Of a DNA stretch of 64,000 nucleotides, positions 14,561 through 36,207 are shown piece by piece. The stretch comes from Blastococcus sp. URHD0036. GTDB lineage: Bacteria; Actinomycetota; Actinomycetes; Mycobacteriales; Geodermatophilaceae. The position numbers and the translations under genes were made by a program. The stretch spans positions 1 through 64,000 of the forward strand of contig NZ_JNIK01000016.1 in assembly GCF_000701365.1 (NCBI RefSeq). Direction: 5' to 3'. Every line of letters begins with the position of its first letter. Positions within the stretch are counted from its first letter, which is position 1. The notes under the pieces are model-generated. The model was not told the origin of the DNA. It ran no database searches and worked only from the letters and a program-made list of their open reading frames with translations.

Positions 14561-14642
14561 CCGACAAGAGTGCACGTCCGCCCGGGGACCATCCCGTCGA
14601 GTGGTTCCGTCGCGGAGCGGGCGGCACGCATCACGGCGCGGT

Positions 14643-20344: not shown

Positions 20345-22324
20345 GTGAGCACCGACACCGGCTCCCGTCCCGTCCGCGACCGGACGGTGCCGGCCGATCC
20401 CGCGCAGCCGGACCCGGGGGCGTCCCGCCCCCGTGCGGCAGGACCGCGGGAGGGTCGCTGGCTGCTGGGCGGGCTGGCCGCCGTCGTCCTCGCCGTGCTC
20501 GTCAGCGTCGCGGTCCAGGTGGTGGTCGACCGGGTGCCGGTCTCCCCGAACACGAACGTGCCGGTGGCGCTGATGGACTGGGCGACGGTGGCCGGGCTCG
20601 CCGTCGCCGCGGTGCTGCTCCTCCGGACCCGGATGCCGGCGCTGGTCCGCGAGGGTCTGGCGGTGGCGGTGCTGGCCGCCCTGGGGACGACGGCCGTCGC
20701 GCTGTCCCTGACGGCGACGGACTACTACCTGATGGGACTCAGCGAGGACCAGCTGTTCCGGACGCAGTACCTCACCCGGCTGACCGACAGCGCCGCCCTC
20801 GCCGACATCAACTACGCCGACATCTCGCCCTTCTACCCGCCGGGCTGGTTCTGGCTGGGGGGCCGCCTGGCGGACCTGTTCGGCGTACCGGCGTGGCTGT
20901 TCTACAAGCCGTGGGCCCTCACCACGCTGGGCGTGGTCCCCGTGGCGGCCTACTGGGTGTGGCGCCGGCTGGTCGGACCCCGGCTGGCGCTGTGCATCGG
21001 GCTCGTCGTCGTCGCCGCGGGCCTGGGCGAGGCCGCCACCGAGCCGTACTCCTGGGCGATCGCCGCCCTGCTGCCCGCCGCCGTCGTCGTCTTCTGGCGG
21101 TCGGTCGCCCCGGGGGCCCGCCGGCGGTGGCCGCACCTGGTGGGGCTGGGCGTGTTCATCGGCGCGTCGCTCAGCGTCTACACCCTGCTCGGCGGCTTCG
21201 CCGCCGCCGTGCTCGCCGGGCTCGCGGTCGCCGGCGCGTGGCTGGACGGGCCGGGGAACCGGCGGGCGGGCCTCGCCCGGACGCTCCCGGCGCTGGCCGT
21301 GGTGGCGGGAACGGCTGCGGTGGTGGCCGCGCCGGCCTGGGCGCGCTACGTCCTCGCGGTGCTCCAGGGCGAGGGCGGGGACAACGCGGCGGCGCGCTTC
21401 CTCCCGCTGCAGGGCGCCCAGCTGCCCGCGCCCATGCTGGAGCCCTCCGTCTGGGGGGCGTTCCTGGCGGTCGGACTGGTCTACGTGGTGTGGCAGGGGG
21501 TCGTCGGGACGGGTCGCGACGCCGCGATCTGCCGGCCCCTCGCGCTCCTGGTGGGCGGCGTCTACGCCTGGTTCGGCCTGTCCACCCTCGCGCTGGGCCT
21601 CGACACGACCCTGCTGGCCTTCCGCACGGAGCCGGTGCTGGAGACGGCGCTGGCCGCGGCCGCGGTCCTCGCGCTCCGGCGCGCCTGGGAGCTCGCCCGG
21701 CGCCGGTGGCCCGTCCGGTCCGACGGGCAGGTCCGCGGTGTGTTCGCCGTGCTCACGGTCCTGGGGATCCTGCTGGGCACCGTCACGCTCCGGGACAACG
21801 TCCGCGAGCTCGACCCCCAGGTGGCGGTGGCCCACAACGACCCCTACCCGAGTGGGCTCAACGCGCGGGGCCTGGCCGTCCCCGACGCCGACGAGGGGTG
21901 GATCGACGGCCTGGCCGCAGCGATCGACACGGGGACCGGACAGCCGGCCGACGAGCTGGTGGTCCTCACCACGAACTACCCCCTGCTGGCCGTGTACCCC
22001 TACCGCGGCTTCCAGGCCAACGCCCCCCACTACGCCAACCCGCTGGCCGACTACACGGAGCGGTCGCAGTTCGTCGAGACGCTCGCGACGAGCTCCTCGC
22101 AGGCGGAGTTCCTGGCCCGGCTGGACGCCGCCCCGTGGCGGGCTCCCACGGTCTTCGTGCTGCGTCCGGAGGACGACGGGCTGCACCTCGAGCTGCGGTC
22201 CGACACCTTCCCCGGCAGCCCGAACATCCACCTCTACGACGTCGTCTTCGACCCCGCGGTGTTCGCGGGCTGGTACCGCCAGGACGTCGGACCGTTCGCC
22301 GTCCTCGTCCGCCCCGGGAGCTGA
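20345..22324 (+). CDS. aftA: Galactan 5-O-arabinofuranosyltransferase AftA
   Basis: A 659-residue GT-C membrane enzyme that primes arabinan by adding the first Araf residues from DPA onto galactan. It has about eleven helices (from residue 38) and a C-terminal extracytoplasmic domain of about 200 residues. Family marks include SEDQLFRTQYLTRLTDS and NYADISPFYPPGWFW in the first large loop, with the acidic catalytic region, and PAWLFYKPWA. Length is close to Rv3792 (643 aa). The GTG at 20345 follows a purine-rich ribosome-binding site; the first 35 residues are a disordered Pro/Arg/Asp extension. A CCTCCCG/CGGGAGG hairpin follows the stop. Confidence 0.93.
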   Translation: MSTDTGSRPVRDRTVPADPAQPDPGASRPRAAGPREGRWLLGGLAAVVLAVLVSVAVQVVVDRVPVSPNTNVPVALMDWATVAGLAVAAVLLLRTRMPALVREGLAVAVLAALGTTAVALSLTATDYYLMGLSEDQLFRTQYLTRLTDSAALADINYADISPFYPPGWFWLGGRLADLFGVPAWLFYKPWALTTLGVVPVAAYWVWRRLVGPRLALCIGLVVVAAGLGEAATEPYSWAIAALLPAAVVVFWRSVAPGARRRWPHLVGLGVFIGASLSVYTLLGGFAAAVLAGLAVAGAWLDGPGNRRAGLARTLPALAVVAGTAAVVAAPAWARYVLAVLQGEGGDNAAARFLPLQGAQLPAPMLEPSVWGAFLAVGLVYVVWQGVVGTGRDAAICRPLALLVGGVYAWFGLSTLALGLDTTLLAFRTEPVLETALAAAAVLALRRAWELARRRWPVRSDGQVRGVFAVLTVLGILLGTVTLRDNVRELDPQVAVAHNDPYPSGLNARGLAVPDADEGWIDGLAAAIDTGTGQPADELVVLTTNYPLLAVYPYRGFQANAPHYANPLADYTERSQFVETLATSSSQAEFLARLDAAPWRAPTVFVLRPEDDGLHLELRSDTFPGSPNIHLYDVVFDPAVFAGWYRQDVGPFAVLVRPGS

Positions 22325-22571: not shown

Positions 22572-25001
22572 ATGACCGCATCCACCGGCTCGCGTGCCGC
22601 CGTCCTCGACCGGGATGCCGAGCCGCGGGTCGACGCCTCCGCTCCCGCCGGCGCCCCGTCCCGGGCCCGCCGCGGGGTGCGCGGCATCGCCCTCGCCTTC
22701 GGCGCCTACCTGCTCGTGCAATGCCTCCAGCTGCTGCTGGTCCGGCACTGGGCGCCGCGCTTCTTCTGGTTCGACGACTCGCAGGCGCAGTTCGGCCCCA
22801 TGACGTGGTGGCTGGGCGGCAACGCCGACGGCGGCCGGCCCCCGCTCATGGACCCGGACCTGGGCATGGGCGGGAACTTCGTCGCCGACATGCAGTACGG
22901 CGTGCTCGACCCCCTGCACTGGCTGGCCCAGGCGCTCCTGTCGCGCTCGGACGACTTCCTCTTCATCTCCTGGGCCTACGGCGCCGGGATGGTCCTCGTG
23001 CTCGGCGCGGGCGCGCTGGCCGTGCTGCTGCAGCACCGCGTCGCGCCGGCGCTCGCGGTGGCCGGCGCCGTCGGCATCGGCTCCAGCGGCTTCCTCCTCT
23101 GGTACGGCAGCTCCTGGTGGCCGCTGCTGTGGGCGACCGCCTGCCTGCCCTGGCTGTGGTTCGGGCTGCGCAGCCGCTCCGCGGCCGGCGTCCTGGTGAC
23201 CGGCCTGGCCACCTGGGCGCTGCTGACCTCGGGCAACCCGTACGCCTTCCCCTTCGCCGCCCTGCTGATCGTCGGGCAGCTGCTGGAGTACCGGGCGGAG
23301 GCCGGCTCCTGGCGGGCCGCGCTGCTCACCCCTCGGGCGCTGTCCCGGGCGGCGGCCTGCGTCGGCGGCCTCGTCGTCGCCCTGCCGACCTTCCTCTCCA
23401 CCCTGCAGATGTCGGCGGTCATGGGCCGGCCCGAGGCCGACCCGCTGGTCGGCAACGCCGGCTTCGCCGTGCCGAACCTCGCCGACGTCCTCCTCGGCGG
23501 CACCACCCTGCTCGGCCAGACGAACGCCTGGACCGGTGACATCGGCCTCGCCCCGGCGCTGGCCACCGCGCTCGTCGCCCTGCCCGCGGCGGCCCTGGTC
23601 GACTGGCGCACCGCATGGCGCCGGCCCGGGGTCGTCACCGCCGGCCTGGTCTGGCTGGCCGCGGTGGTGGCCACCCAGCTGCCGACGACGGTAGCGGTGT
23701 TCCGCTACCCGCTGCGCTACGTCGTCTACGTCGAGGTCTTCCTGCCTCTGCTCGTGCTCATCGCGCTGACGGTGGCGCCCCTGCTCACCCGGCGCCGGGT
23801 GATCGCCGCCGCGGGCATCGCCGGCGCCCAGGCGGCGCTGTCGCTCTCCCGCGCCCCGGCGCTCGTCGGCTGGCACGTCCTGGGGCTGATCGTCAGCCTC
23901 GTCGCCCTGGCCGCCCTCGTGGTCGTGCTCCGGTCCCGTCCCGCCCCGGTCGCCGCCGACGGCCCGCCGTCCGACGACGACCGGCAGCCGGACCCGCCGC
24001 AGGAGTCCGCTGTGCCGCCCCGGGCGGACGCCGTCCCCGGGCGGCTGCGGGCGCTCCCCTCGCTGGCCGGGGCCCTCCTCGTGCTGGCCGTCGCCACCGG
24101 CTTCCCGATCGGCGAGCAGATGATGGTCGCCGTCCAGGACCGGGACGAGGCGATCAAGGCGCAGCCCGACGCGAACGGCGCCCCGCTGCGCGCCCTGGAC
24201 CCGGGCCGCGACGTCGGCACGACGGTCCAGGCCTACCGCGACCGGTCCGTCGCCCCGGACGAGACGCTCACGGTCGTCACCTGGGGCTTCGACGCCGATC
24301 GCGGCTGGGCCGACGGCGTCGTCAACGGCAGCGGCAACGTCGTCGCCGGGATGAAGCCCGGTTTCGCCTCGCTGGCCGTCTGGCAGTCCGCGCTCAACGA
24401 CCACTGGTGCCGCACCGTGTGGGGCGCCACGTGCTCCGGACCCGAGCAGCTGCTCGCCGAGGCGGGCGACACCGGGGTGACCTGGCTGGACCTGATGTCG
24501 GCGGACACGGTGCTGCTGTCGGCGGACGCGCCCGAGGAGGTGCGCCTGCACCTCGAGGAGAACTGGCGACAGGTCGCCGGCAACGACACCTGGCTGCGGT
24601 TCGAGCGCGGCGACGCGCTGCCCGGCCGGGTCACGGCCGTCACCGGCGACGTCACGGTGTCGCCCGAGGACTGGACCTCCGGTCTGGCGCGGGCCGGCGA
24701 GCCGATGGACCGCTACGTCGTCTCCACCGGGGACGCCGGCGGCACGCTGGCCACGCGCATCCCGTACTACCCGGGCATGACCGCGACGCTGGACGGCGCG
24801 GAGGTGCCCGTCACCTCCGTGGACGGTGCGGCGCTCGCGGTGGACCTGCCCGGTGGCGTGGACGGCGGCCGGCTCGAGCTCGCCTACGCCCCGGCCGGTG
24901 CCGGGCTCGTCGTCCCGGCCACCGTCGTCGGGGTCGTCCTCATCGGGCTGGCCGCGCTCGGGGGTGCGCTGCTCTCGCGTCGTGCGGAGGCCCGCGGATG
25001 A
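22572..25001 (+). CDS. YfhO-like GT-C membrane protein, putative polyprenyl-P-sugar transferase
   Basis: An 809-residue integral membrane protein with about 12 helices and a C-terminal extracytoplasmic beta-rich domain (about 520-780) before a last helix, the layout of YfhO/GT-C proteins that use polyprenyl-phosphate sugars outside the membrane. The first long loop contains WFDDSQAQFGPMTWW, whose Asp pair resembles GT-C catalytic acids, and a MDPDLGMGGNFVADMQYG segment. A Pro/Asp-rich linker lies near residues 455-490. The specific acceptor is unknown. It opens a run of six coupled genes and its TGA overlaps the GtrA start (ATGA). With GtrA and the GT2 gene at 28324 it fits a GTR-type glycosylation set; this is inference. 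Confidence 0.75.
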   Translation: MTASTGSRAAVLDRDAEPRVDASAPAGAPSRARRGVRGIALAFGAYLLVQCLQLLLVRHWAPRFFWFDDSQAQFGPMTWWLGGNADGGRPPLMDPDLGMGGNFVADMQYGVLDPLHWLAQALLSRSDDFLFISWAYGAGMVLVLGAGALAVLLQHRVAPALAVAGAVGIGSSGFLLWYGSSWWPLLWATACLPWLWFGLRSRSAAGVLVTGLATWALLTSGNPYAFPFAALLIVGQLLEYRAEAGSWRAALLTPRALSRAAACVGGLVVALPTFLSTLQMSAVMGRPEADPLVGNAGFAVPNLADVLLGGTTLLGQTNAWTGDIGLAPALATALVALPAAALVDWRTAWRRPGVVTAGLVWLAAVVATQLPTTVAVFRYPLRYVVYVEVFLPLLVLIALTVAPLLTRRRVIAAAGIAGAQAALSLSRAPALVGWHVLGLIVSLVALAALVVVLRSRPAPVAADGPPSDDDRQPDPPQESAVPPRADAVPGRLRALPSLAGALLVLAVATGFPIGEQMMVAVQDRDEAIKAQPDANGAPLRALDPGRDVGTTVQAYRDRSVAPDETLTVVTWGFDADRGWADGVVNGSGNVVAGMKPGFASLAVWQSALNDHWCRTVWGATCSGPEQLLAEAGDTGVTWLDLMSADTVLLSADAPEEVRLHLEENWRQVAGNDTWLRFERGDALPGRVTAVTGDVTVSPEDWTSGLARAGEPMDRYVVSTGDAGGTLATRIPYYPGMTATLDGAEVPVTSVDGAALAVDLPGGVDGGRLELAYAPAGAGLVVPATVVGVVLIGLAALGGALLSRRAEARG

Positions 25002-25438
25002 GCGACCGTCGCCAGCTCCTGCACCAGCTCGTCCGGTTCCTGCTCGGCTCGGGTCTGGGGCTGATGGTCGACCTCGGGGTCTTCGCCACGGCCGTGGCCC
25101 TGAGCGCTCCGCCGTGGGCGGCCAACGTGCTCAGCGCGGGGTGTGCCGTCGTGGTCGTCTACCTGTTCGTCACGCGGTACGCCTTCCAGAGCGGCCGGTC
25201 GCGGACGTCGTTCCTCCTCTTCGTCGGGTGGTACGTCGTCTCCATCGCCGTGTTCTCGGTGTTCATCGAGGTCCTGCACGAGCAGACCGGGTGGGCTGCC
25301 TTCATCTGTAAGTTGGCCTCGTTGCCGCCGTCGTTCGCCGCCAACTTCGTCTTCAGCCGCCTGCTGTTCCACCGGGCGGCCACGGAGCCGGCCGGACACG
25401 CGGAACCGGGGCCCGACCGTCGTCCGGTGGGCGCGTGA
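24998..25438 (+). CDS. GtrA-family membrane protein (putative lipid-sugar flippase)
   Basis: A 146-residue protein with four predicted helices and the GtrA-family start QLVRFLLGSGLGLMVDLGVF. Other family marks are VVVVYLFVTRYAFQ and the late SFAANFVFSRLLFH. GtrA proteins are proposed to flip polyprenyl-phosphate-linked sugars made by a partner GT2. The ATG overlaps the stop of the YfhO-like gene by 4 bp, so the two are coupled. The partner GT2 in this operon is at 28324. The C-terminal tail is short and hydrophilic. Confidence 0.88.
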   Translation: MSDRRQLLHQLVRFLLGSGLGLMVDLGVFATAVALSAPPWAANVLSAGCAVVVVYLFVTRYAFQSGRSRTSFLLFVGWYVVSIAVFSVFIEVLHEQTGWAAFICKLASLPPSFAANFVFSRLLFHRAATEPAGHAEPGPDRRPVGA

Positions 25439-25508
25439 GGCGCGGAGCCGCCGGGTGGGGACGCCCGGCGCGGCGCGAGGGGGAGAGCACGTGATCGGGA
25501 GGGACACC

Positions 25509-26099
25509 ATGGGGGAGCCACGCTCGGCCACGACGGCGCCGGGGACCGTCGAGGCCCTCCTCTTCGACCTCGACGGGACCCTCGTGGACACCCGGGAGGC
25601 CAACTACCAGGCCTACCGCGACGCGTTCGCGGCGTCGGGACACGACCTGAGCCCCCAGCAGTTCGCCACCACGTGGGGCCGTGACTCGCGGGACTTCATC
25701 CCCGACCTGCTGCCCGGCATCGACCGCGCCGGGATCGACACGATCCGGGCCGACAAGAGCCGCCGGTACGCCGACCTGCTGGACCGCACCACGGCCAACG
25801 ACGCGCTCATCGCGTTCCTGCGGCTGGTGGCGCCGACGCACCGGACGGCGCTGGTGAGCACGGCGAAGTCGGTCAACGGCCGGCAGATCCTGGAGACCCA
25901 CGGGCTGACCCCGCTGTTCGACGTCGTCGTCTGGGGCGACGAGGTCGAGCGCAGCAAGCCCGACCCGGAGGGCTATCTCCGGGCGCTGGGGGTGCTGGGC
26001 GCCGATCCCGCCCGCAGCCTCGCCTTCGAGGACTCCGAGACCGGCCGGCAGGCCGCGCTCGCCGCCGGCATCCCCGTCCTCGAGGTGCCGCACTTCTGA
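25509..26099 (+). CDS. HAD-superfamily phosphatase (PGMB/Gph-like)
   Basis: A 196-residue HAD hydrolase with all four motifs: LLFDLDGTLVDT (nucleophile Asp and acid Asp), ALVSTAKS, KPDPEGY and FEDSETG. The alpha-helical cap lies between motifs I and II. Small-molecule phosphate esters, especially sugar phosphates, are the usual substrates. The ATG at 25509 is chosen because GGGAGG lies 6 nt upstream; an in-frame GTG at 25491 is an alternative. Its TGA shares a base with the ATG of the next gene (TGATG). In this operon it could dephosphorylate a sugar-bisphosphate intermediate of donor synthesis. Confidence 0.88.
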   Translation: MGEPRSATTAPGTVEALLFDLDGTLVDTREANYQAYRDAFAASGHDLSPQQFATTWGRDSRDFIPDLLPGIDRAGIDTIRADKSRRYADLLDRTTANDALIAFLRLVAPTHRTALVSTAKSVNGRQILETHGLTPLFDVVVWGDEVERSKPDPEGYLRALGVLGADPARSLAFEDSETGRQAALAAGIPVLEVPHF

Positions 26100-28327
26100 T
26101 GGCTCTCCCTCGCTACTCCCGCGGCCGGCTCGCACTCATCGTCGTCGCACTGGTCGCGCTCGTCGTCTTCGCCGCCCTGTGCTGGTCGGTCCTCGAGTCG
26201 ATGTGGACGCTGCTCCGCGAGAACCTGTCCGGCGGCGAGTGGGTCGTGCTCGGCGTCGCGGCGCTGGTCCAGCTCGTCGGGCACGTGCTCCGGGCGGCGC
26301 GGACGAAGGTCGTCATCGACAACGTGCGCAGGGGCAGCCTCGCCGGGCAGTTCCGGCACCTGTCCATCGGCTACCTGTTCAACGTGGTCTTCCCGTTCCG
26401 GGTCGGCGAGGTGGTCCGGTCCTACCTGATCGCCAAGACGCTGCGGATCAGCTTCCTGTACACGCTGCTGGCGGTGGTCCTGGAGCGGCTGATCGACGTC
26501 GTCCTGGTGTCCGTGGCGTTCCTCGTCTTCCTCGCCGTCATCGGCAACCCCGGCTCCGGGGTGCTCGCGCTCACGGCGGCGTCCGCGTTGGTCGTCGCGC
26601 TCGCGGCCGTCGTCGCCTTCGCGGCGTTCGTGCGGGAGAACCGCTTCCTCATGCGGATGGCCTGGCGGGCCTCCAGCTGGCTCAACACCGATCTGGAGAA
26701 CCGCGCCCGCTTCAAGCTGTGGTCGGTCATCTTCGGCTTCCAGCGCTTCTCCCGGCAGCGTCGCCAGGTGGCCCGCTACGGCGTGCTGGCCCTCGCCTCC
26801 TGGGCCTGCTACCTCGCCGCCGCCCTGTTGGTCGGTGCCGTGGTCTTCACCGGGCTGGGCGGCAGTGACGCGATCGCGGCCGCCGCCGCGCCGGCCGCTG
26901 CGGTCAGCTCCGGCGTCGGCAACGGCGAGCCCGGCGGGTACCTGGAGGACATCCAGGGCTTCCTCGACGGCAGCACCGACCTCGAGGCGACGCAGGTGAT
27001 CGTCTTCGCCGCGGCCACGTGGGTCGTCTCCAACGTGCCGGTCATGGTGGTCGCCGTCGTCGCACTGTTCGTCAACTGGGCCCGCCGCACGAGCGCCCCG
27101 CTGGCGGGCGCCGAGCTGGCGCCCTCGGACCGGTACGTGAACAAGCTCGGCCGCGACCAGGACATCTCCGGCTCGATGACGCACTTCCTGGACTCGTACT
27201 TCCAGCGCCAGCACCTGAGCACGGTGATGCACCGGCTGGAGGTCGAGGGCAACGTCAGCCTGGTCCGCTTCTTCAAGGGCGGGTCGAACGCCGTCACCCT
27301 CCTGGCGACCAACGGGTCGGGGGAGCTCTTCGTCAAGAAGATGGTGCCCACGGAGTACGCGCACCGGCTGAAGAACCAGCACGACTGGCTCGCCGAGCGT
27401 GGCGACCACGACCAGCTGGTCACGGTGCTGCGCGAGGAGCAGTCCACCGACCACTACGCCATCGACCTGGAGTACCGGCCCAGCAGCGTCCCGCTGTTCG
27501 AGTACGTGCACGAGCACCAGCTCGCGGCCGGCCAGGCGAAGATCGCCGAGGTCTGGGACTACATGTACTCGCGCGTCTACCAGATCGGGGCGCTCGAGCA
27601 CCGGCCGGACGTCCGCGACGAGTACGTCACCGAGCGGTTCGTCCTCCGGGTGCGGACCGCCGCGGAGTCCCACCCCGCGCTCGCCGAGGCGCTCAAGGGC
27701 GACCGGATCGAGGTCAACGGGATCGAGCTGGACAACTTCGACCGCGTCCTCGCCCGCATCCAGGCCCACCCCGACGCGTGGGAGGACCTCGCGACGTTCC
27801 GCTCGTCGTCCAACATCCACGGCGACCTCACGGTGGACAACATCCTCGTGGACCTGCCCACCGACCGGGTCCTGGTCATCGACCCCTCCGACGACAACCA
27901 GATCCGCGGGCCGGTGATCGACTTCGCCCGGCACATGCAGTCGCTGCTCTACGGCTACGAGTTCCTCAACGACGACGAGGACCCGGTCCTGCTGGGCGAG
28001 TCCGAGGGCGGCGTCCCGGAGATCACCTACCGCGACGCCCGCTCGGCGCGCTACGCCGAGCTGGCCGACTTCGTGTCCACCGAGATCATGCCGCGCCGGC
28101 TGCTGCCCTCGGAGCAGCGCGCGGTGCTGTTCCACGTCGGGCTCTTCTACGGCCGGATGCTGACCCACCGGGTGGCGATCAACTCCGGCACGGTGCTCAA
28201 GTACTACGGCGCCTGCATCCAGGCGCTGAACCGCTTCCTGGACCAGTACGAGCTCCCCGCCGTCGCGGTCCAGGACGACGACGTCTTCGGCGACGCGCCG
28301 GTGGACGAGGAGGTCCTCGTACGGTGA
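26099..28327 (+). CDS. Fusion: LPG-synthase-TM/flippase-like domain + APH-fold kinase domain
   Basis: A 742-residue two-part protein. Residues 1-345 form a UPF0104/lysylphosphatidylglycerol-synthase-TM region with about 7-8 helices; VFPFRVGEVVRSYLIAK is the typical conserved loop. An Ala/Gly/Asp-rich insert (about 262-300) precedes the last helix. Residues 350-720 resemble an aminoglycoside/choline-kinase fold: a Lys pair in LFVKKMVP, the catalytic loop NIHGDLTVDN (His574, Asp576, Asn581) and the metal motif VIDPSDD (Asp595). The kinase would phosphorylate a small alcohol, sugar or lipid at the membrane while the N-terminal part may move a lipid. Coupling to HAD, GT2 and nucleotidyltransferase genes suggests donor synthesis. 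The substrate is unknown. Confidence 0.78.
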   Translation: MALPRYSRGRLALIVVALVALVVFAALCWSVLESMWTLLRENLSGGEWVVLGVAALVQLVGHVLRAARTKVVIDNVRRGSLAGQFRHLSIGYLFNVVFPFRVGEVVRSYLIAKTLRISFLYTLLAVVLERLIDVVLVSVAFLVFLAVIGNPGSGVLALTAASALVVALAAVVAFAAFVRENRFLMRMAWRASSWLNTDLENRARFKLWSVIFGFQRFSRQRRQVARYGVLALASWACYLAAALLVGAVVFTGLGGSDAIAAAAAPAAAVSSGVGNGEPGGYLEDIQGFLDGSTDLEATQVIVFAAATWVVSNVPVMVVAVVALFVNWARRTSAPLAGAELAPSDRYVNKLGRDQDISGSMTHFLDSYFQRQHLSTVMHRLEVEGNVSLVRFFKGGSNAVTLLATNGSGELFVKKMVPTEYAHRLKNQHDWLAERGDHDQLVTVLREEQSTDHYAIDLEYRPSSVPLFEYVHEHQLAAGQAKIAEVWDYMYSRVYQIGALEHRPDVRDEYVTERFVLRVRTAAESHPALAEALKGDRIEVNGIELDNFDRVLARIQAHPDAWEDLATFRSSSNIHGDLTVDNILVDLPTDRVLVIDPSDDNQIRGPVIDFARHMQSLLYGYEFLNDDEDPVLLGESEGGVPEITYRDARSARYAELADFVSTEIMPRRLLPSEQRAVLFHVGLFYGRMLTHRVAINSGTVLKYYGACIQALNRFLDQYELPAVAVQDDDVFGDAPVDEEVLVR

Positions 28328-29106
28328 ACGCGGTCCCGCAGAAGGTGGTCGTCGCCATCCCGGCGTACAACTGCGCACCCCAGATCGGCCGGGTCCTCGA
28401 CGAGATCCCCGACGAGGTGGCCGCCCGGGTCCAGGAGATCTGGGTGATCGACAACCGCAGCACCGACGACACCCTCGAGCGGGCCCTGGAGTACCAGCGC
28501 TCGGGCCGGCTGCCGAACCTCCGGGTGTTCCGGAACCGGCAGAACAACAGCCTCGGCGGCACGCACAAGGTGGCCTTCGAGCACGCCCGGGCCGCGGGGA
28601 TGACCCACGTGGTGATCCTGCACGGGGACAACCAGGCCAAGAGCGACGAGCTCGCGCTGCTGCTGGACCACGCGCAGGCCCATCCGGAGACGCAGACCGT
28701 GCTCGGCTCACGGTTCAGCCGGCACTCCCAGCTGGCCGGTTACGACGCGAAGCGGGTCTGGGGCAACCGGGTGCTCAACGGCGTCTACAGCGTCGTGACG
28801 CTGCGCTCGCTGCAGGACCTCGGCTCCGGGCTGAACCTCTTCGCACTGCGCGACCTGGACCCGGCGACGTACCTGCGGTTCGCGAACCAGCTGACGTTCA
28901 ACTACGAGCTCATCCTCGACCTGGTCCGCCGGAAGGTGCGCTTCGCCTACCTCCCGATCTCCTGGCGGGAGGAGGACCAGGTGTCCAACGCCCGGAACTG
29001 GAACATCTTCCGGACGGCGCTGCGCAACCTCGCCCTCTGGCGCCTGGGCCGGCCGACGTCGCAGCCGGCGACCGACCGCGACTACGAGTGGGACGAGGTC
29101 CGCTGA
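28324..29106 (+). CDS. Family 2 glycosyltransferase, polyprenyl-phosphate type (GtrB/DPM-like)
   Basis: A 260-residue GT-A-fold family 2 glycosyltransferase without C-terminal helices. Motifs in order are AIPAYNCAPQIG, VIDNRSTDDT, LHGDNQAKSDEL (nucleotide-sugar/metal site, DxD-like GDN) and a C-terminal PISWREEDQVSN stretch that in DPM1/ArnC/GtrB relatives borders the active site. The likely reaction is transfer of a sugar from an NDP donor to polyprenyl phosphate on the cytosolic face. Its GTG overlaps the stop of the flippase-kinase gene (GTGA) and its TGA overlaps the following ATG. With GtrA (24998) and the YfhO-like GT-C (22572) it completes a three-component set. Confidence 0.85.
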   Translation: MNAVPQKVVVAIPAYNCAPQIGRVLDEIPDEVAARVQEIWVIDNRSTDDTLERALEYQRSGRLPNLRVFRNRQNNSLGGTHKVAFEHARAAGMTHVVILHGDNQAKSDELALLLDHAQAHPETQTVLGSRFSRHSQLAGYDAKRVWGNRVLNGVYSVVTLRSLQDLGSGLNLFALRDLDPATYLRFANQLTFNYELILDLVRRKVRFAYLPISWREEDQVSNARNWNIFRTALRNLALWRLGRPTSQPATDRDYEWDEVR

Positions 29107-29846
29107 TGGCCACCCTGCAGGTGCTCATGCCGATGGGGGGTCTGGGCACGCGTTTCCGCAAGGTCGGCATCAGCACGCCCAAGCCGCTCATCGAGGTCGA
29201 CGGCGGTCCGATGTTCCAGCGCGCGCTGCGCTCGTTCGACCCCTGGGTGGGGGAGAAGACGGTGACCGTCGTGGTCCGCGCCGACGACGACGCCGAGCAC
29301 GGGCTGGCCGACCGGGTGCTGGCCGCCCAGCCCGACGCCCGCATCGTGCTGCTGGACCACGACACCCGGGGTGCGGTGGAGACCTGCCTCGTGGCCCGCG
29401 AGGCCCTCGACCCGGACCAGCCGCTGGTCATCATCGACTGCGACATCGCCTTCGACAGCGCCGAGTACTTCCGGGTGCTGGCCGACGCCGTGGCGCAGGA
29501 GAGCCTCGACGGGCTGCTGCTGTCGTTCTCCTCGGTGCTGCCCCGCTACAGCTTCGCCGAGGTGGGCGCGGACGGCCTCGTCGTCCGCACCGCCGAGAAG
29601 CAGGCGATCTCCTCCGACGCGCTCATGGGCGTCTACTCGTTCACCACGGCGCGGGTCTTTCTCGACGCCGCCGACCGGCTGATGGCCCGGCAGATCGACG
29701 CCGCCATGCCCGAGTACTACGTGTCGCTGGTGTTCAACGAGCTCATCTCGTCGGGCCGGCGCGTGGGCCTGGTCCGCGGGGACTTCTACTGCTTCGGCAC
29801 GCCCGAGGAGCTGGCCGCCTACCAGGCCACCGGCCTGCCGGTCTGA
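29106..29846 (+). CDS. Sugar nucleotidyltransferase
   Basis: A 246-residue single-domain nucleotidyltransferase that activates a sugar-1-phosphate (or related alcohol phosphate) to an NDP form. The N-terminal signature MPMGGLGTRFRKVG is followed by TPKPLIEVDGGPM, and IIDCDIAF supplies the metal-binding Asp; GDFYCFGTPEEL closes the fold. It lacks the C-terminal beta-helix of GlmU or GlgC-type enzymes, resembling short HddC/RmlA-like proteins. Nucleotide and sugar specificity cannot be read. It is the last gene of the coupled operon 22572-29846 and would produce the donor for the GT2 just upstream. Confidence 0.87.
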   Translation: MATLQVLMPMGGLGTRFRKVGISTPKPLIEVDGGPMFQRALRSFDPWVGEKTVTVVVRADDDAEHGLADRVLAAQPDARIVLLDHDTRGAVETCLVAREALDPDQPLVIIDCDIAFDSAEYFRVLADAVAQESLDGLLLSFSSVLPRYSFAEVGADGLVVRTAEKQAISSDALMGVYSFTTARVFLDAADRLMARQIDAAMPEYYVSLVFNELISSGRRVGLVRGDFYCFGTPEELAAYQATGLPV

Positions 29847-29975: not shown

Positions 29976-32174
29976 ATGGACACGACGACGAGGCCCATGC
30001 CCCCCGTGGCACAGCCGGCCATCGACACCTCCCGCGCCTCCCGCCTGGTTGCGACGCCGCCCCTGCCGCCTCGGCCGCGACTGGCCGCGTCGAAGCCGGG
30101 GACCGGCCACCACCCGCAGCGGCACGACATCCAGGGGCTCCGAGCCCTGGCGGTGCTGCTCGTGGTCGCTTATCACCTCCAGCCCGACCGGTTGCCGGGT
30201 GGCTTCGTCGGCGTGGATGTCTTCTTCGTGATCTCGGGCTACCTGATCGTCGGGTCGCTGTCGCGTGAGGCGATCAAGACGCAAACGATCCGACTCGGCC
30301 AGTTCTACGCCCGTCGTGTCCGGCGGTTGCTGCCGGCGGCGACGGTCGTCCTGCTGGCGGTCGTCGTAGCGACGGTGCTCCTCATGCCCGTCAGTCGGTG
30401 GCGGGCGACGGCGCTGGACGTCATCACCTCCGCGTTGCAGGTCCAGAACTGGGCCTTAGCGTTTGGTGCCGGCAGCTACGCCGAGGCCACAGCCGCAGTC
30501 TCCTCCGTCCAGCACTTCTGGTCGCTCGCCGTGGAGGAGCAGTTCTATCTATTCGTCCCGGTGCTCCTGCTTGGCACGGTTGCCGCGGCGACCCGGCTAC
30601 GTCGTGACCCGCAGGTAGCGATCGTCTGGGTGCTGTCCGGCGTCGCGCTGCTGTCCTTCGTGCACTCGATCACCTATTCGGCCAGTAACCACGACGTCGC
30701 GTACTTCGCGACGACAACCCGGATCTGGGAGCTGGCCATTGGCGGGCTCGCGGCGGTGGGCGTCCTCAGGGCGCCCGGGCGTCAGTCTGTGCGTTGGGCT
30801 GCGGGGTGGGCCGGCGTCCTCGCCATTGGCGCCTCGGCGCTCCTGCTGAACACGACGATGGCCTTCCCCGGCTGGCTGGCTGCGATTCCGGTGCTCGGCA
30901 CGCTGGCGGTGGTGTGGATGCCGCACTCGCCGGTCGACTCCACGCGTCCGGGCGACTTCTGGCACCGCGTGAGCGTGACGGCCCTGCTCGGGCTGCGTCC
31001 CGCGCGCTTCATTGGGGACGTCTCCTACTCGATGTACCTCTGGCACTGGCCGGTCATTGTCTTCTTCATCCATCTGAGCGGCCACGAGCCCACCGCCGTG
31101 GAGGGAGTCGCCCTTGTCGCGGTGCTCATCGCGTTCTCGTGGGCCTCGACGCAATTCATCGAGGCCCCGTTCCGCTCTGCCCGACCGCGACCGGGGCGTA
31201 GGGAGCGGTCCAGCGGTTCACGTTCCGCGGCCCTGCTGGCCGGCGGCCTCGTAGCCACGTCGGTCGTCGTAGCCGCCGTCCCGCTGGCCTACGTCTCGAT
31301 CCGGGCGGCTTCCGCTTCAACCGCCGGCCTGGACGCCGACCACCCCGGTGGCCGGGACGAGCTCCCCGAGGACCTTCCCGCCTTCTCTGAAGGCGTCGAG
31401 GTTGTGCCGGACCCGATCGTGGCCGCCGATGACCGCTCCATCACCATGTCCGGCGTCTGCGACAGTTACGAGCCCGGGGTGACTGATCCGGCGGCCTGCA
31501 CGTTCGGCGACGTCGACAGCGACCAGGTCGTGGTCCTGGTGGGGGACTCGCACGCCAGCCAGTTCAGCACCGTCCTGGCCGACGCCGGCTCCGACTATGG
31601 CTGGCGCGTCCAGGCCATGGTCCGGGCTGGCTGCCCGTTCAACGCCTCACCGCTGGTGGTCGATGGCGCGCGTCCCACGGGCTGCGTCGATGCCGATGCG
31701 CGCATCCTCGACGAGGTCTTGGACCTGAACCCCGACGTCGTGGTGACCTCGGCGATGACCCCGCGGGGCTACGCGGACGCGCTTGGCTGGACATGGGACG
31801 ACACCGGCGAACTGGTGGAGGGCTACCGCTCTCTGTGGCAGCCGATCGTCGACGCCGGTATCCGCTTGGTCGTGATCCGGGACGTGCCATTCCCGACCTA
31901 CGACGGGCCCGACTGCGTTGCTGAGCACGGTCCCGAGAGCACCGAGTGCTCGATGACCCGGGCGGAGGCCCTGCCCGAGGGCAGCGACCCGCTCCTGCTG
32001 GCGGCTGAGGGGATGGACGGCGTCTCGGTGGTCGACCTCAGCGACCACCTGTGCAACGACCGGGTGTGCCCGGGGGTCGTCGGGAACGTCTTGGTCTACA
32101 GAGACAACCACCTCACCGACACGTTCGCCCGCAGCCTCGGACCGGTGCTCAGTACCGAGATCGGCCTCATCTAA
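29976..32174 (+). CDS. OafA-type acyltransferase-3 with C-terminal SGNH domain
   Basis: A 732-residue membrane O-acyltransferase. The N-terminal acyltransferase-3 domain (about 10 helices) starts with DIQGLRALAVLLVVAYH and FVGVDVFFVISGYLI, which carry the conserved Arg/His. HFWSLAVEEQFYLFVP and MYLWHWPVIV follow. The extracytoplasmic C-terminal SGNH domain has VVLVGDSHASQF (Ser nucleophile) and DNHLTDTF (Asp/His). Such enzymes O-acetylate or succinylate wall polysaccharides. The start is uncertain: ATGs at 29958, 29976 and 29997 are in frame and 29976 is chosen as the best compromise. Codon use is visibly less GC3-rich than in neighbours (for example tta, cta, aca, att), suggesting transfer. 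Confidence 0.88.
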   Translation: MDTTTRPMPPVAQPAIDTSRASRLVATPPLPPRPRLAASKPGTGHHPQRHDIQGLRALAVLLVVAYHLQPDRLPGGFVGVDVFFVISGYLIVGSLSREAIKTQTIRLGQFYARRVRRLLPAATVVLLAVVVATVLLMPVSRWRATALDVITSALQVQNWALAFGAGSYAEATAAVSSVQHFWSLAVEEQFYLFVPVLLLGTVAAATRLRRDPQVAIVWVLSGVALLSFVHSITYSASNHDVAYFATTTRIWELAIGGLAAVGVLRAPGRQSVRWAAGWAGVLAIGASALLLNTTMAFPGWLAAIPVLGTLAVVWMPHSPVDSTRPGDFWHRVSVTALLGLRPARFIGDVSYSMYLWHWPVIVFFIHLSGHEPTAVEGVALVAVLIAFSWASTQFIEAPFRSARPRPGRRERSSGSRSAALLAGGLVATSVVVAAVPLAYVSIRAASASTAGLDADHPGGRDELPEDLPAFSEGVEVVPDPIVAADDRSITMSGVCDSYEPGVTDPAACTFGDVDSDQVVVLVGDSHASQFSTVLADAGSDYGWRVQAMVRAGCPFNASPLVVDGARPTGCVDADARILDEVLDLNPDVVVTSAMTPRGYADALGWTWDDTGELVEGYRSLWQPIVDAGIRLVVIRDVPFPTYDGPDCVAEHGPESTECSMTRAEALPEGSDPLLLAAEGMDGVSVVDLSDHLCNDRVCPGVVGNVLVYRDNHLTDTFARSLGPVLSTEIGLI

Positions 32175-32663
32175 CCCGTGGCTCCATTGACGAGCCGTCC
32201 CCACGTCCGGCCCGCGTCGGGATGGCTGGCCTGATCGGGGGGACACCGGCCTGCGACCGTTGGCCGGCCCCTGAGTCGACGCCCCGACATCTCGCCCGGT
32301 GCGGCCGACCGGCACAGGTGGTTACGGCTCGTCCGAATATGCCTCGTGTCCCGAGGACATCGCGGCTCGCGGGTCGAAGCCCTTGCCCACCGCGCCGATC
32401 GGCCGGCGACCGGCTGGCGAGGGCTGCCGCCTCGTCCCCGCCGACGTACTTTGCGCCGGCCATCGCCACGCCCTCGTGACCAAGCCCATCCGGCAATGGG
32501 CGGGCTCCCGAGCCCGGTGGGATAGGCGCGACGCATGGGGCGAGGTCGACATGTTGACACGCGTTCCTCGACTCAAGATCCGGCCGGTGGTTGCCGATGC
32601 TGCCCTTGGAGAGATGTGCCCTTTGCAGGGCACGCCGCCCACGATCCACCGGAGGACCCCCTC
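32175..32663. other. 489-bp non-coding stretch upstream of the LGFP amidase
   Basis: No open frame here looks like a protein. Base composition is less GC-skewed than in neighbouring genes, like the oafA gene before it. It holds a small perfect hairpin (GTGCCC at 32616-32621 with GGGCAC at 32628-32633) 31 bp before the amidase start, a TTGACA hexamer at 32554-32559 without a well-spaced -10, and the ribosome-binding site GGAGGA at 32651-32656. It could be a long regulated leader, but I recognise no known riboswitch. Confidence 0.5.
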
Positions 32664-35642
32664 GTGCGCCGCCTCATCGCGGGATCCCTCGCCTCGGTCG
32701 CCTTCACCGGCACCTTCCTGATCCTCCCCGTCTACGCCGATCCCGGACCGGAGCCGGTCCCGGTGGAGGCCTCCTCCCAGGAGATCGAGCTGGGCTCGGT
32801 CGAGGAGCCGGCCGCGGCCGCCGACGTGCAGGAGGGCACGACCGACCCGGTCGCGGGCGTGAGCGACGCCGCCCCGGTGCTGACGGTCAACCGGACGGGC
32901 GTCGACGAGTTCTCGCTCGTCGGTGTGACGTGGGCCTACGACGCCGCCGTGACCGACGTCCTCGTCCAGGTACGGGTGCAGGACGCCGCCGGCACGTGGG
33001 GCACGTGGACCGAGGTCGGCACCGAGGACGCCGGCCCGGGGTCGGACGAGCACGCGGCACCGGAGACGCTGCGCGGCGGCACCGCCCCGCTGTGGACCGG
33101 CCCGAGCACGGGCGTCGAGGTGGAGCTGGTCACCCGGTCCGGCGCGGCGCCCACCGACGTGCAGCTCGACCTCATCGGCAGCGAGCAGAGCCCGGCCGAC
33201 ACGAACCTCGGGACCCCCGACATCCAGGACACCGCCGACGCCGCGATGGCGATGCCCGACGTGTACTCCCGCGAGCAGTGGGGTGCCGACCCGAACATCC
33301 GCACCTGGGACCCCGAGTACGCACCGACGATCAAGGCCGCGACGCTGCACCACACCGCCGACTCGAACAACTACACGGCCGACCAGGTGCCGCAGATGCT
33401 GCGGAACATCTACACGTATCACGCCCAGAAGCTGGGTTGGGGCGACATCGGCTACAACGTCGTCGTCGACAAGTTCGGCCGGCTCTGGGAGGGACGGGAC
33501 GGCGGGCTCGCCTCCACCGTCATCGGGGCGCACGCGGGCGGGTTCAACACCGGGACCTTCGGTGTCTCGATGCTGGGCAACTACGACGCCGTCAACACGA
33601 CGCAGCCGATGGTCGACGCGGTCGCGGCGATCATCGCCTGGAAGTTCTCCCTGTACGGCGTGAACCCCAACGGCCGCACCACGCTGGTCTCCGGTGGGGG
33701 AGGGACCGCCCGGTACGCCAAGGGCGTCGCGGTCGACCTGCCCACCATCTTCGGCCACCGCGACGTCGGCAGCACCGCCTGCCCCGGTCAGTACGGCTAC
33801 GCCCGGCTGGGGGAGATCCGGTCGAAGGTCTCCGGGATGCTCGGCTCGGCGGTCCCCCTGGTGCAGCAGCGCTACGACACCGACTCCGCCGTCCGCACGC
33901 TGCTGGGCGCGGTCTCGACCCCGCCGACCCGGTTGCCCGACGGCATCGGTGCGTACGCCCACTACGCCGGCGGCTCGATCTACGCGACGAACGCGACCGG
34001 GGCCCACGTGCTCCGCGGGCCCATCCGGGACAAGTGGGCGTCGCTCGGCTGGGAGCGCAGCTCGCTGGGCTACCCGACCACCGACGTCACCCCGCTCGCC
34101 GGCGGCGGCCTGTTCGCCCACTTCCAGAACGGCTCCATCTACTGGTCGCCGGCGACCGGTGCGCACACGGTCGGCGGCGCGATCCGGGACCGCTGGGCGG
34201 CGCAGAACTGGGAGAACGGACCGCTGGGCTACCCGGTGTCTGACTGGACGACGACGCCGAACGGCCGGGCGCAGTACGTGCACTTCGCCGGCGGCTCGGT
34301 CTACTGGTCGCAGGCCACGGGTGCTCGGATCCTCCAGGGCCCGGTCATGGAGGCCTGGGGTCGCGCCGGATTCGAAAACGGCTCCCTGGGCCTTCCGCTG
34401 ACCGACGTGGCCGCGACCCCGGGCACGCCCGGCCGTTTCGCACACTTCCAGAACGGCTCCATCTACTGGTCTCAGGCGACCGGCGCGCACACCGTCGGCG
34501 GCGCCATCCGTGATCGGTGGGCGGCGCAGAACTGGGAGAACGGACCGCTGGGCTACCCGGTGTCTGACTGGACGACGACGCCGAACGGCCGGGCGCAGTA
34601 CGTGCACTTCGCCGGCGGGTCGATCTACTGGTCCCAAGCGACCGGCGCGCGCATCCTCACCGGCGCCGTCTACAGCGCCTGGGCCGCGACGGGCTGGGAG
34701 AACAGCCCGCTGGGCCTGCCGGTGAGCGACACGGGGACCACCCCCGACGGCCAGGCCCGGTACGCCCACTTCCAGAACGGCTCGGTGTACGCCACCACGG
34801 CCTTCGGCACGTCGGTCCTGCCCGCGGCCGTGGTCGAGGCCTGGGGACGGACCGGGTGGGAGGGCGGCCCGCTGGGTTACCCGACCGCGCCCGCGCCCGG
34901 CGCCGGGACGGCGGCCGGCTCGAGCGGCACGACGGAGGTCCGCTTCCAGGGCGGCGTCGTCGTCACCGGCCCGGGCGGCACGCATGCCGTCAGCTCCGCC
35001 TTCCAGGCCGCGGTGACCGCCGCCGGCGGGACCGCGGTCCTGGGCGCACCGACCACCGACGTCGCCACGACCCCGGACGGGCGCGCCTCGTACCAGCACT
35101 TCACCGCGGGGTCGATCTACGCGACGGCGGCGACGGGGGCCCACGCGGTCCGCGGGGCGGTCTACGACCTGTGGGCCCGCCGGGGCTGGGAGAACAGCTC
35201 GCTCGGCTACCCGGTGTCGACCACCGGGGCCACGCCGGACGGGCTCGGCCTCTACTCCCACTTCCAGGGCGGCTCGATCTACTGGACCCGGGCCACCGGC
35301 GCCCACCAGCTCGCCGGGCCGGTGTACGACGCCTGGGCGCGGACCGGCTGGGAGCAGGGCGTGCTGCGCTACCCGACCACCGACGTCACCTCCACCCCGG
35401 ACGGCCGCGGCCAGTACGCCTACTTCCAGGGCGGCGCCGTCTACTCCAGCCAGGTCGGGGGAGCGCGCGTGCTCCGCGGCGCGGTCCTCGACGCGTGGGC
35501 GTCCACCGGCTGGGAGCAGGGCCGCCTGGGCTGGCCGACGTCGGACCCGGTCGCGGTCTCCGGCGGCACCCGCACCGACTTCGAGCACGGCTCGATCACC
35601 GTCTCCACCAGCACGGGCGCGGCCACCGTCACCGTCCGGTGA
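32664..35642 (+). CDS. Secreted PGRP/N-acetylmuramoyl-L-alanine amidase with LGFP repeats
   Basis: A 992-residue exported protein. The GTG at 32664 sits 7 nt after GGAGGA and begins a signal peptide (VRRLIAGSLASVAF, cut near VYADP). Residues about 190-400 are a peptidoglycan-recognition/amidase-2 domain starting VYSREQWGAD. Zinc ligands are visible as TLHHTADSN (His229/His230), FGHRDVGS (His365) and Cys373, so it is probably a catalytically competent amidase. From about residue 425 there are ten LGFP-type units of about 54 residues and a partial last unit, likely binding wall polymer (arabinogalactan). Units 2-3 and 4-5 are nearly identical DNA duplicates. The protein probably remodels peptidoglycan while tethered to the wall. 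Confidence 0.9.
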   Translation: MRRLIAGSLASVAFTGTFLILPVYADPGPEPVPVEASSQEIELGSVEEPAAAADVQEGTTDPVAGVSDAAPVLTVNRTGVDEFSLVGVTWAYDAAVTDVLVQVRVQDAAGTWGTWTEVGTEDAGPGSDEHAAPETLRGGTAPLWTGPSTGVEVELVTRSGAAPTDVQLDLIGSEQSPADTNLGTPDIQDTADAAMAMPDVYSREQWGADPNIRTWDPEYAPTIKAATLHHTADSNNYTADQVPQMLRNIYTYHAQKLGWGDIGYNVVVDKFGRLWEGRDGGLASTVIGAHAGGFNTGTFGVSMLGNYDAVNTTQPMVDAVAAIIAWKFSLYGVNPNGRTTLVSGGGGTARYAKGVAVDLPTIFGHRDVGSTACPGQYGYARLGEIRSKVSGMLGSAVPLVQQRYDTDSAVRTLLGAVSTPPTRLPDGIGAYAHYAGGSIYATNATGAHVLRGPIRDKWASLGWERSSLGYPTTDVTPLAGGGLFAHFQNGSIYWSPATGAHTVGGAIRDRWAAQNWENGPLGYPVSDWTTTPNGRAQYVHFAGGSVYWSQATGARILQGPVMEAWGRAGFENGSLGLPLTDVAATPGTPGRFAHFQNGSIYWSQATGAHTVGGAIRDRWAAQNWENGPLGYPVSDWTTTPNGRAQYVHFAGGSIYWSQATGARILTGAVYSAWAATGWENSPLGLPVSDTGTTPDGQARYAHFQNGSVYATTAFGTSVLPAAVVEAWGRTGWEGGPLGYPTAPAPGAGTAAGSSGTTEVRFQGGVVVTGPGGTHAVSSAFQAAVTAAGGTAVLGAPTTDVATTPDGRASYQHFTAGSIYATAATGAHAVRGAVYDLWARRGWENSSLGYPVSTTGATPDGLGLYSHFQGGSIYWTRATGAHQLAGPVYDAWARTGWEQGVLRYPTTDVTSTPDGRGQYAYFQGGAVYSSQVGGARVLRGAVLDAWASTGWEQGRLGWPTSDPVAVSGGTRTDFEHGSITVSTSTGAATVTVR
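34194..34294 (+). repeat. 101-bp perfect direct repeat, copy 1
   Basis: This stretch is identical to 34518-34618, offset 324 bp (two LGFP units), inside otherwise diverged repeats. It indicates a recent duplication or gene conversion. Confidence 0.9.
34518..34618 (+). repeat. 101-bp perfect direct repeat, copy 2
   Basis: Second copy of 34194-34294. The flanks differ at scattered third positions, so the identical core is younger than the array. Confidence 0.9.
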
Positions 35643-35703
35643 CCCACGCTGCCGCCCCGTCCCGAACGACCGACCGGCTCCGCCCGGTCCTGAGGAGCTC
35701 GCC

Positions 35704-36207
35704 ATGACCGTCCGTACCCGTTCCGCTCTCGTCCTGGTCGCGGCCGCCCTGCTCCCGCTCGCCGGCTGCTCGTCCGACGACCCCGACACCGACACCGCGG
35801 CCGCCGAGGGGCCGGCCGCGACGTCGTCGTCCTCGTCGGCCCCGGCGTCCGAGGAGACCGAGCCCCCCGCCGGGGAGACGGCCGCCACCGACCCGCCGCG
35901 GCCGGCGACCACCGACGTCGTCCTCACCCAGGCCGAGTGGGACCCCGCCGAGGCCGCCCTCCTGGGCTCCGGCTACATCAGCCCGGTCGTCGAGGACGGC
36001 GGCACCTGCACCCTCGAGGTCTCCCGGGACGGCAACGTCGTCCGCGCGACGACCGAGGGCATCGCCGACGCCACGACGACGGTCTGCGACGGCCTGGCCC
36101 TGCCCGGCGACGAGCTGCGGTCCGGTACCTGGACGGTGGTCCTGCGCTACGAGTCGGAGACCACGTCGGGCGAGTCCGCGCCGGTCGAGGTCGAGGTGGC
36201 CCCGTGA
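35704..36207 (+). CDS. Small secreted lipoprotein, unknown function
   Basis: A 167-residue putative lipoprotein. The signal peptide ends in the lipobox LAGC (Cys21 region of LLPLAGCSSDD), followed by a low-complexity Ser/Thr/Pro/Glu linker (about 25-75) and an approximately 90-residue beta-rich domain containing two Cys (GGTCTLEV and TTVCDGLAL) that may form a disulfide. The ATG follows AGGAGCTCGCC. It lies 61 bp after the LGFP amidase and its TGA overlaps the GTG of the second LGFP protein, so all three may be co-transcribed surface proteins. I recognise no family. Confidence 0.78.
   Translation: MTVRTRSALVLVAAALLPLAGCSSDDPDTDTAAAEGPAATSSSSSAPASEETEPPAGETAATDPPRPATTDVVLTQAEWDPAEAALLGSGYISPVVEDGGTCTLEVSRDGNVVRATTEGIADATTTVCDGLALPGDELRSGTWTVVLRYESETTSGESAPVEVEVAP

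Follow-up and report, generated by a model that had tools for sequence, protein, structure and literature searches.

A candidate three-component glycosylation cassette with putative donor-synthesis enzymes in the wall-polysaccharide locus of Blastococcus sp. URHD0036

The 64,000-nucleotide stretch of Blastococcus sp. URHD0036 analysed here (the window) contains a compact run of six genes, confirmed at positions 22572-29846, where a preliminary description had placed them. The genes, their domains and their nearest context are:

16280-17632: DprE1, left flank (693 bits, cut-off 500)
20384..22324 (start approximate), + strand: AftA arabinofuranosyltransferase (AftA_N, AftA_C), upstream context outside the cassette
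22572..25001, + strand: GT-C, 809 aa, proposed acceptor transferase (weak Pfam YfhO match, predicted fold)
24998..25438, + strand: GtrA family small membrane protein, 146 aa (PF04138)
25509..26099, + strand: 196-aa HAD phosphatase or mutase, close to beta-phosphoglucomutase and TM_1254 (HAD_2); alternative GTG starts at 25491 and 25455
26099..28327, + strand: membrane-kinase fusion, 742 aa (PF03706 and PF01636)
about 26099-27100, + strand: N-terminal LPG_synthase_TM flippase-like domain of the fusion (PF03706)
about 27101-28327, + strand: C-terminal APH-type small-molecule kinase of the fusion (PF01636)
28324..29106, + strand: GT2, DPMS/AglJ-like, 260 aa, proposed polyprenyl-phosphate-sugar synthase acting with GtrA (PF00535)
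29106..29846, + strand: MobA-like sugar-phosphate nucleotidyltransferase (NT), 246 aa (PF12804)
29976..32174, + strand: SucT-like acyltransferase, downstream context (NF058601, 325.9 bits, below the cut-off of 1275)

In gene order, the junctions are a 4-bp overlap, a 70-bp gap between GtrA and HAD, and overlaps of 1, 4 and 1 bp. The earlier claim that nearly all genes are joined by 1-4 bp overlaps therefore holds at four of the five junctions and fails at GtrA/HAD, and these overlaps support a single coupled operon.

Three of the proteins recall known lipid-linked glycosylation systems. GtrA matched PF04138 at 43.6 bits (cut-off 26.1). GT2 exceeded the Pfam cut-off for Glycos_transf_2 (60.3 bits) and reached the cut-off of no NCBIfam polyprenyl-phosphate-sugar synthase model; the top NCBIfam model was AglJ (50.6 bits, below 325), and assignment as PpgS was rejected (27.1 bits against 370). 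Against the PDB it matched DPMS (5mlz, E 3e-4) and, slightly better, chondroitin synthase (E 1.4e-4), and hydropathy revealed no TM segment. The 809-residue protein had been described as a YfhO-like GT-C. By sequence it is weakly YfhO-like, scoring 24.6 bits against a cut-off of 28.5 for PF09586 over 57 C-terminal residues, and its predicted fold best matches GT-C enzymes: in Foldseek its AlphaFold model (pLDDT 80.5) hit ArnT first (5ezm, E 3e-4, TM-scores 0.36/0.50), followed by AftD, Pmt4, OST and AglB (E 0.003-0.24). It has about 10 TM segments by hydropathy, with an FFWxDD-type motif after TM1. The TM-scores of these GT-C matches are modest. The family calls and the predicted GT-C fold support the proposed three-part, GTR-like logic of GtrA, GT2 and GT-C.

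The remaining genes encode a candidate donor-synthesis set. HAD scored above the Pfam cut-off for HAD_2 (93.2 bits) and below that of TIGR02009 (107.8 bits against 153); its closest PDB structure is TM_1254 (3kbb), followed by CbbY and bPGM. As read by eye from the alignment, HAD shares two cap residues with beta-phosphoglucomutase, a lysine and a tyrosine, and the cap arginine lies one position off; we take these to be functional cap residues. From its sequence, HAD may be either a phosphatase or a mutase. The fusion joins LPG_synthase_TM (64.6 bits) and APH (26.7 bits) in one protein, both above their cut-offs, with about 8 TM segments by hydropathy. Its kinase domain has a predicted kinase fold, and the HGDLTxDN and IDPSDD motifs are conserved in 12/12 aligned sequences. 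Foldseek ranked aminoglycoside, protein and fructosamine kinases together, so that the fold does not fix the substrate class. By sequence the domain alone matched nothing in the PDB, its profile found at best a macrolide phosphotransferase (E 0.017) and a chance-level lyase (E 0.93), and an NCBIfam scan of the fusion matched no kinase model. NT scored above the Pfam cut-off for NTP_transf_3 (44.5 bits), and its profile matched 4evw at E 4.6e-22. Together, kinase, HAD and NT could plausibly make an NDP donor.

We surveyed 112 Geodermatophilaceae genomes, comprising 16 kinase carriers and 96 non-carriers. In all 17 loci selected by NT, GtrA, HAD, the fusion, GT2 and NT kept one order on one strand. 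As an exception among the loci examined, the 19 kb of sequence at the G167 locus yielded no GtrA. GT-C lies upstream of the five genes in 14 of the 15 loci with enough upstream sequence. It is present in 15/16 carriers (G504 is the exception) and 1/96 others, with a Fisher p of 1.6e-16 that overstates independence, since the genomes are related. Eight of the 16 carriers encode two distinct GT-C genes. The proposal had staked itself in part on co-conservation in relatives, and this is what we found; the kinase-phosphatase-nucleotidyltransferase set is likewise present and travels with the glycosylation genes. Within the family, identity to the window is 80-93% for NT, 83-92% for GT2, 74-89% for the kinase and 50-76% for GT-C. 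A conserved donor part with a variable acceptor transferase fits GTR logic.

The cassette tree conflicts with the tree of flanking genes, with AU tests against each; the cassette therefore moves horizontally. Its relatives recur in another phylum: the alphaproteobacterial plasmid pPB17_3 (Brucellaceae, Pseudochrobactrum; locus L021) encodes five of the six proteins in a different order, its donor module, fusion included, adjoining dTDP-rhamnose genes. A Cryobacterium locus (L018) carries the cassette minus this GT-C. The polytopic neighbours in L018 and L021 were considered as GT-C homologues and rejected, as hhalign detected no homology. A viral origin was likewise rejected: viral contigs scanned with the kinase and NT profiles gave 33 and 29 pattern matches, 0 confirmed. 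G503, the sole non-carrier in which this GT-C occurs, encodes a parallel operon: alongside GT2, GtrA and HAD it has a double NTP-transferase, a class II aldolase and a membrane protein joined to a PRK/uridine-kinase domain unrelated to the APH-type kinase. The membrane part of that fusion bears a weak resemblance to GT87 (16.5 bits against a cut-off of 25) and is not LPG_synthase_TM. By eye, this operon also holds a phosphodiesterase-like stretch, where Pfam matched nothing.

In the window, the cassette lies between arabinan and galactan genes, as described earlier: an EmbC-type gene, decaprenyl-phosphate phosphoribosyltransferase, DprE1, DprE2 and AftA lie to the left, and Wzm, GlfT1 and GlfT2 to the right. 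A SucT-like homologue follows the cassette in 10/17 relatives, on the opposite strand in 9 of these. In 13 of 15 Geodermatophilaceae loci the cassette directly follows an AMP-binding gene, a different point of the wall locus. Carriers G000, G408, G458 and G504 have Wzm homologues; none was seen in the stretches covering the remaining carriers, which are not long enough to rule Wzm out. A partial view of PMC9686282 lists only common whole-cell sugars, with arabinose and galactose patchy and no tie to carriers.

In Geodermatophilaceae, the arabinan/galactan machinery encoded next to the cassette probably supplies the acceptor, a wall polysaccharide that need not be arabinan. The narrower version, compatible with our main reading, that it is specifically arabinogalactan (AG), is possible rather than probable. 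The position between AftA and the SucT-like gene speaks for it, as does DprE1, somewhat commoner in carriers (10/16 against 32/96, Fisher p 0.048); lipid-linked GalNAc serves to decorate AG in M. tuberculosis and probably in C. glutamicum, according to excerpts of PMC9671496 and PMC3485146. Yet 6/16 carriers (5/15 among good-quality ones) gave no DprE1 match at 1e-100 and 3/16 no GlfT2 match at 1e-60, with only 35-39% matches in 3 more and neither gene matched in G458; diverged DprE1, thresholds or assembly gaps could explain some of these absences (G493 is 72% complete). With relatives also in Cryobacterium and the alphaproteobacterium Pseudochrobactrum, arabinogalactan as the acceptor, suggested in the preliminary description, is not established.

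We propose that the operon is probably a mobile three-component extracytoplasmic glycosylation cassette with its own donor-synthesis enzymes. Families, coupling, co-occurrence, the predicted GT-C and kinase folds, the tree conflict and the cross-phylum recurrence are computed; each reaction, the order of steps and the flippase assignment we infer. HAD would take off (or move) a phosphate on a sugar phosphate, the APH-type domain would phosphorylate the sugar, most likely at C1, and NT would form the NDP-sugar. The soluble GT2, anchored by GtrA as a split DPMS-like enzyme, would then load the sugar onto polyprenyl phosphate. The LPG_synthase_TM part of the fusion, or else GtrA, may flip the lipid-linked sugar, which GT-C would pass on to a polymer on the outer side of the membrane. 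The donated sugar is probably not a housekeeping one, because such a sugar would need no private kinase and nucleotidyltransferase. More tentatively, actinobacteria and an alphaproteobacterium may share a self-sufficient mobile cassette for a new polyprenyl-phosphate-linked sugar, made via phosphatase, anomeric kinase and nucleotidyltransferase, with activation physically coupled to flipping in the kinase-flippase fusion.

HAD, kinase and NT could instead serve another pathway, making, for example, an activated non-sugar glycan substituent while GT2, GtrA and GT-C use a common NDP-sugar. The NT family is broad, and on other plasmids it lies beside HAD genes in 4/4 stretches, WavE-type genes in 3/4 and, once, an adjoining annotated phosphodiesterase; the aldolase and the by-eye phosphodiesterase-like stretch of the G503 operon point the same way. 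However, the cassette operon encodes no enzyme that would transfer such a substituent. GT2 and NT lie side by side with similar levels of conservation, and nothing else in the block would use what NT makes. We regard this alternative as unlikely. A role of the fused kinase in recycling the lipid carrier, phosphorylating polyprenol rather than the sugar, is in our view quite improbable. In actinobacteria and on the alphaproteobacterial plasmid alike, the kinase is joined to a membrane domain resembling flippases, which would suit that role, but HAD and NT would then lack a source of sugar-1-phosphate, and the membrane-fused kinase of G503, a loose parallel given its different membrane domain, belongs to the PRK/uridine-kinase family, whose substrates are soluble metabolites. 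MupP-AmgK-MurU recycling of MurNAc shares the HAD phosphatase, kinase (AmgK is APH-type) and nucleotidyltransferase classes and is, to our knowledge, a cytoplasmic route without GT2, GtrA or GT-C. That such a peptidoglycan-sugar salvage set joined a glycosylation operon by chance is highly improbable despite the identical three enzyme classes, since HAD as MupP (NCBIfam 32.4 bits against 359) and NT as MurU (17.1 against 370 and 250) fall far below cut-offs, HAD itself scores better with many other models of its family, and GtrA and GT2 accompany the enzymes in 17/17 NT-selected loci.

Searches of the open-access PMC literature turned up no described precedent for the exact six-part composition, in line with the earlier claim, and several known systems share parts of it. 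Gtr serotype-conversion cassettes are mobile and phage-borne and, as far as we know, carry no donor-synthesis genes. The gtrA-gtrB-gtrX sets of Shigella and Salmonella share GtrA, GT2 and a variable GT-C (PMC11127046, in part), whereas our GT2 lacks a TM segment and the scanned viral contigs held no cassette relative. Pentofuranose systems (Citrobacter ORF12-15, GT136) have in common a lipid-linked donor, a flippase and a GT-C, some with extra epimerase genes, but rely on a MATE flippase and on a polyprenyl-phosphoribose synthase that makes the donor from PRPP; the same partial text mentions no kinase or NT for them (PMC11127046). CsbB-GtcA-YfhO, acting on LTA/WTA in Bacillus, Staphylococcus and Listeria, likewise combines a lipid-charging GT2, a GtrA-family protein and an outside YfhO-type transferase. 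It differs in carrying GlcNAc to teichoic acid and in having no donor-synthesis genes named in the set in the available part of the source (PMC7389260); the cassette GT-C, for its part, scores below the Pfam YfhO cut-off. The AG galactosamine system (PpgS Rv3631, Rv3632, Rv3779; C. glutamicum ppgS, cgp_0391, 0393, 0396, 0658) also pairs GT2 and a small membrane protein with a separate membrane transferase for the wall polymer; an excerpt of its description mentions no private kinase or NT (PMC9671496), and the cassette GT2 misses the PpgS cut-off.

If our main reading is true, GTR-type systems, known as small sets for decorating surface polymers with a household sugar, would extend to kits with their own donor synthesis, and a foreign sugar could be installed by a single transfer. 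Deletion of ppgS, cgp_0658 or cgp_0396 in C. glutamicum stops plaque formation by phage Cog (PMC9671496, in part); cassettes of this sort may therefore be relevant to how actinobacteria resist phages and how their walls diversify. From its sequence, the kinase-flippase-like fusion is a concrete and testable candidate for the poorly understood flipping of polyprenyl-phosphate sugars. The unrelated kinase of G503, fused to another membrane protein, would hint that kinase-membrane coupling arose more than once.

The six-gene cassette is real and conserved, and it is best filed as three-component extracytoplasmic glycosylation, in a new form with putative built-in donor synthesis. In the window (64 kb, 74% G+C, from a 5.18-Mb genome) it is flanked as follows:

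Left of the cassette: EmbC-type gene, decaprenyl-phosphate phosphoribosyltransferase, DprE1, DprE2
Adjoining its 5' side: AftA
22572-29846, + strand: cassette of GT-C, GtrA, HAD, membrane-kinase fusion, GT2 and nucleotidyltransferase (NT)
Adjoining its 3' side: SucT-like acyltransferase
Right of the cassette: Wzm, GlfT1, ABC ATPase, GlfT2

With the EmbC-type gene, DprE1, DprE2 and AftA to the left and GlfT1 and GlfT2 to the right, the cassette lies between arabinan and galactan halves, as the preliminary description had placed it. A further check bore out the identities of DprE1, DprE2, GlfT1 and Wzm. The near-complete coupling by 1-4 bp overlaps proposed there holds at four junctions (GT-C/GtrA, 4 bp; HAD/fusion, 1 bp; fusion/GT2, 4 bp; GT2/NT, 1 bp) but not at GtrA/HAD, where a 70-bp gap shrinks to 52 bp if an alternative GTG start at 25491 is used. 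The wall locus is adjoined by two very long LGFP-repeat proteins (32535-39158), which have 10 and 13 stretches of repeats; one of them also carries an amidase domain.

GtrA, HAD_2, LPG_synthase_TM and APH (in a single protein), Glycos_transf_2 and NTP_transf_3 all score above Pfam cut-offs; the YfhO match of the 809-aa GT-C protein falls below. Among PDB structures, an AlphaFold model of the GT-C (pLDDT 80.5, built with 18 sequences) came closest to ArnT, its sole match at E <= 0.001 (E = 3e-4), followed by AftD, Pmt4 and oligosaccharyltransferases. The kinase-domain model (pLDDT 73.2, 12 sequences) matched aminoglycoside phosphotransferase, protein-kinase and fructosamine-kinase structures, and all 12 aligned sequences retain the motifs HGDLTxDN and IDPSDD, which look catalytic. 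The HAD is closest to TM_1254, then CbbY and beta-phosphoglucomutase, and the NT to 4evw (profile search, E = 4.6e-22). The top NCBIfam model for the GT2 is AglJ, at a score far under its cut-off, and no TM segment was found in this protein.

Published accounts describe three-part logic in common with the cassette for CsbB-GtcA-YfhO (PMC7389260), the PpgS galactosamine system (PMC9671496, PMC3485146) and pentofuranose three-component systems (PMC11127046). Searches of the open-access PMC literature, judged in part by titles and abstracts, turned up no description of the full composition, donor synthesis included.

Querying named genomes with the NT yielded 17 loci, 15 from Geodermatophilaceae plus Pseudokineococcus and Cryobacterium. 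The same-strand order GtrA-HAD-fusion-GT2-NT recurs in 17/17, a count from which the frequency of solitary NTs is not readable because the loci were selected by NT. GT-C lies immediately upstream of GtrA in 14 of the 17; contigs end just before GtrA in L008 and in Cryobacterium (L018), and CNNM/CBS genes occupy the position in Trujillonella endophytica (L016). A kinase profile matched 2 of 396 sampled phylum genomes, counting the window's own, and 16 of 112 family genomes (the carriers), spread over 4 of 12 genera. GT-C was present in 15/16 carriers versus 1/96 other family genomes (Fisher p = 1.6e-16), with two distinct GT-C genes in eight carriers (G403, G405, G406, G408, G415, G446, G458, G486). 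The five-gene order and these GT-C counts bear out co-conservation in relatives.

The cassette is mobile. When HAD, kinase, GT2 and NT are concatenated for the window and 16 loci, the resulting tree pairs the window with Geodermatophilus nigrescens (100/99); a 15-row tree of the flanking AMP-binding gene (window 13757-14575) groups it with L008 and T. endophytica (100/99). In AU tests, the cassette data rejected a window-T. endophytica clade (p = 5.6e-5) and, less strongly, one also including L008 (p = 0.022); the flank data rejected a window-G. nigrescens clade (p = 2.8e-4), a pair chosen after identities were known. The AMP-binding gene immediately precedes GT-C in 13/15 Geodermatophilaceae loci, whereas it adjoins UbiA both in the window and in a genus-mate without the cassette (G505). 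Transposase-type genes lie 3-7 kb from the Cryobacterium NT.

Among carriers, DprE1 was matched in 10/16 (E <= 1e-100) and GlfT2 in 13/16 (E <= 1e-60), three of the latter at only 35-39% identity; G458 matched neither at these thresholds. Relative to non-carriers, DprE1 was marginally enriched (p = 0.048) and GlfT2 was not (p = 0.16). Wzm, Wzt and GlfT1 homologues share the cassette's contig in carriers G000, G408, G458 and G504. Together, these data point to a wall polysaccharide of the Wzm/Wzt/GlfT1-type machinery as the putative acceptor. The arabinogalactan suggested earlier is not supported as such, and arabinan is not firmly indicated.

Family-wide, DprE1 matched 42/112 genomes and GlfT2 70/112, and arabinan and galactan genes look patchy across Geodermatophilaceae, in agreement with the patchy whole-cell arabinose described in PMC9686282. 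Near the cassette in two genomes with no DprE1 match (G486, locus L033; G495, locus L034) lies a phosphoribosyltransferase-type UbiA homologue; the lipid-linked product there is possibly ribofuranose instead of arabinofuranose.

Beyond the family, the plasmid pPB17_3 of the alphaproteobacterium Pseudochrobactrum algeriensis carries consecutive GtrA, GT2, NT, a similar membrane-kinase fusion and HAD, followed by an IS3 transposase and an integrase, with dTDP-rhamnose genes nearby. Pfam identified its GtrA and LPG_synthase_TM, and hhalign gave probabilities of 99.67-100% for kinase, NT, GT2 and HAD. Adjoining these genes is a divergent protein (532 aa, about 10 TM segments) that showed no detectable relationship to the window GT-C. 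In the actinobacterium G167, the locus combines HAD, fusion, GT2 and NT with a GT-C in divergent placement; no GtrA was found within 19 kb. The sole non-carrier with cassette-type GT-C, G503, has two tandem copies in a parallel operon:

L042:8045-19893: two GT-Cs, HAD, membrane-kinase fusion, GT2, GtrA, double NTP-transferase, class II aldolase

Its fusion joins a weakly GT87-like membrane protein to a PRK/uridine-kinase domain, and the operon repeats the cassette's logic with an unrelated kinase. In four alphaproteobacterial and pseudomonad plasmid loci (L022-L025), between one and three NT homologues occur together with HAD genes, adjoined by WavE-type genes in three of the four; these sets are a related but different pathway.
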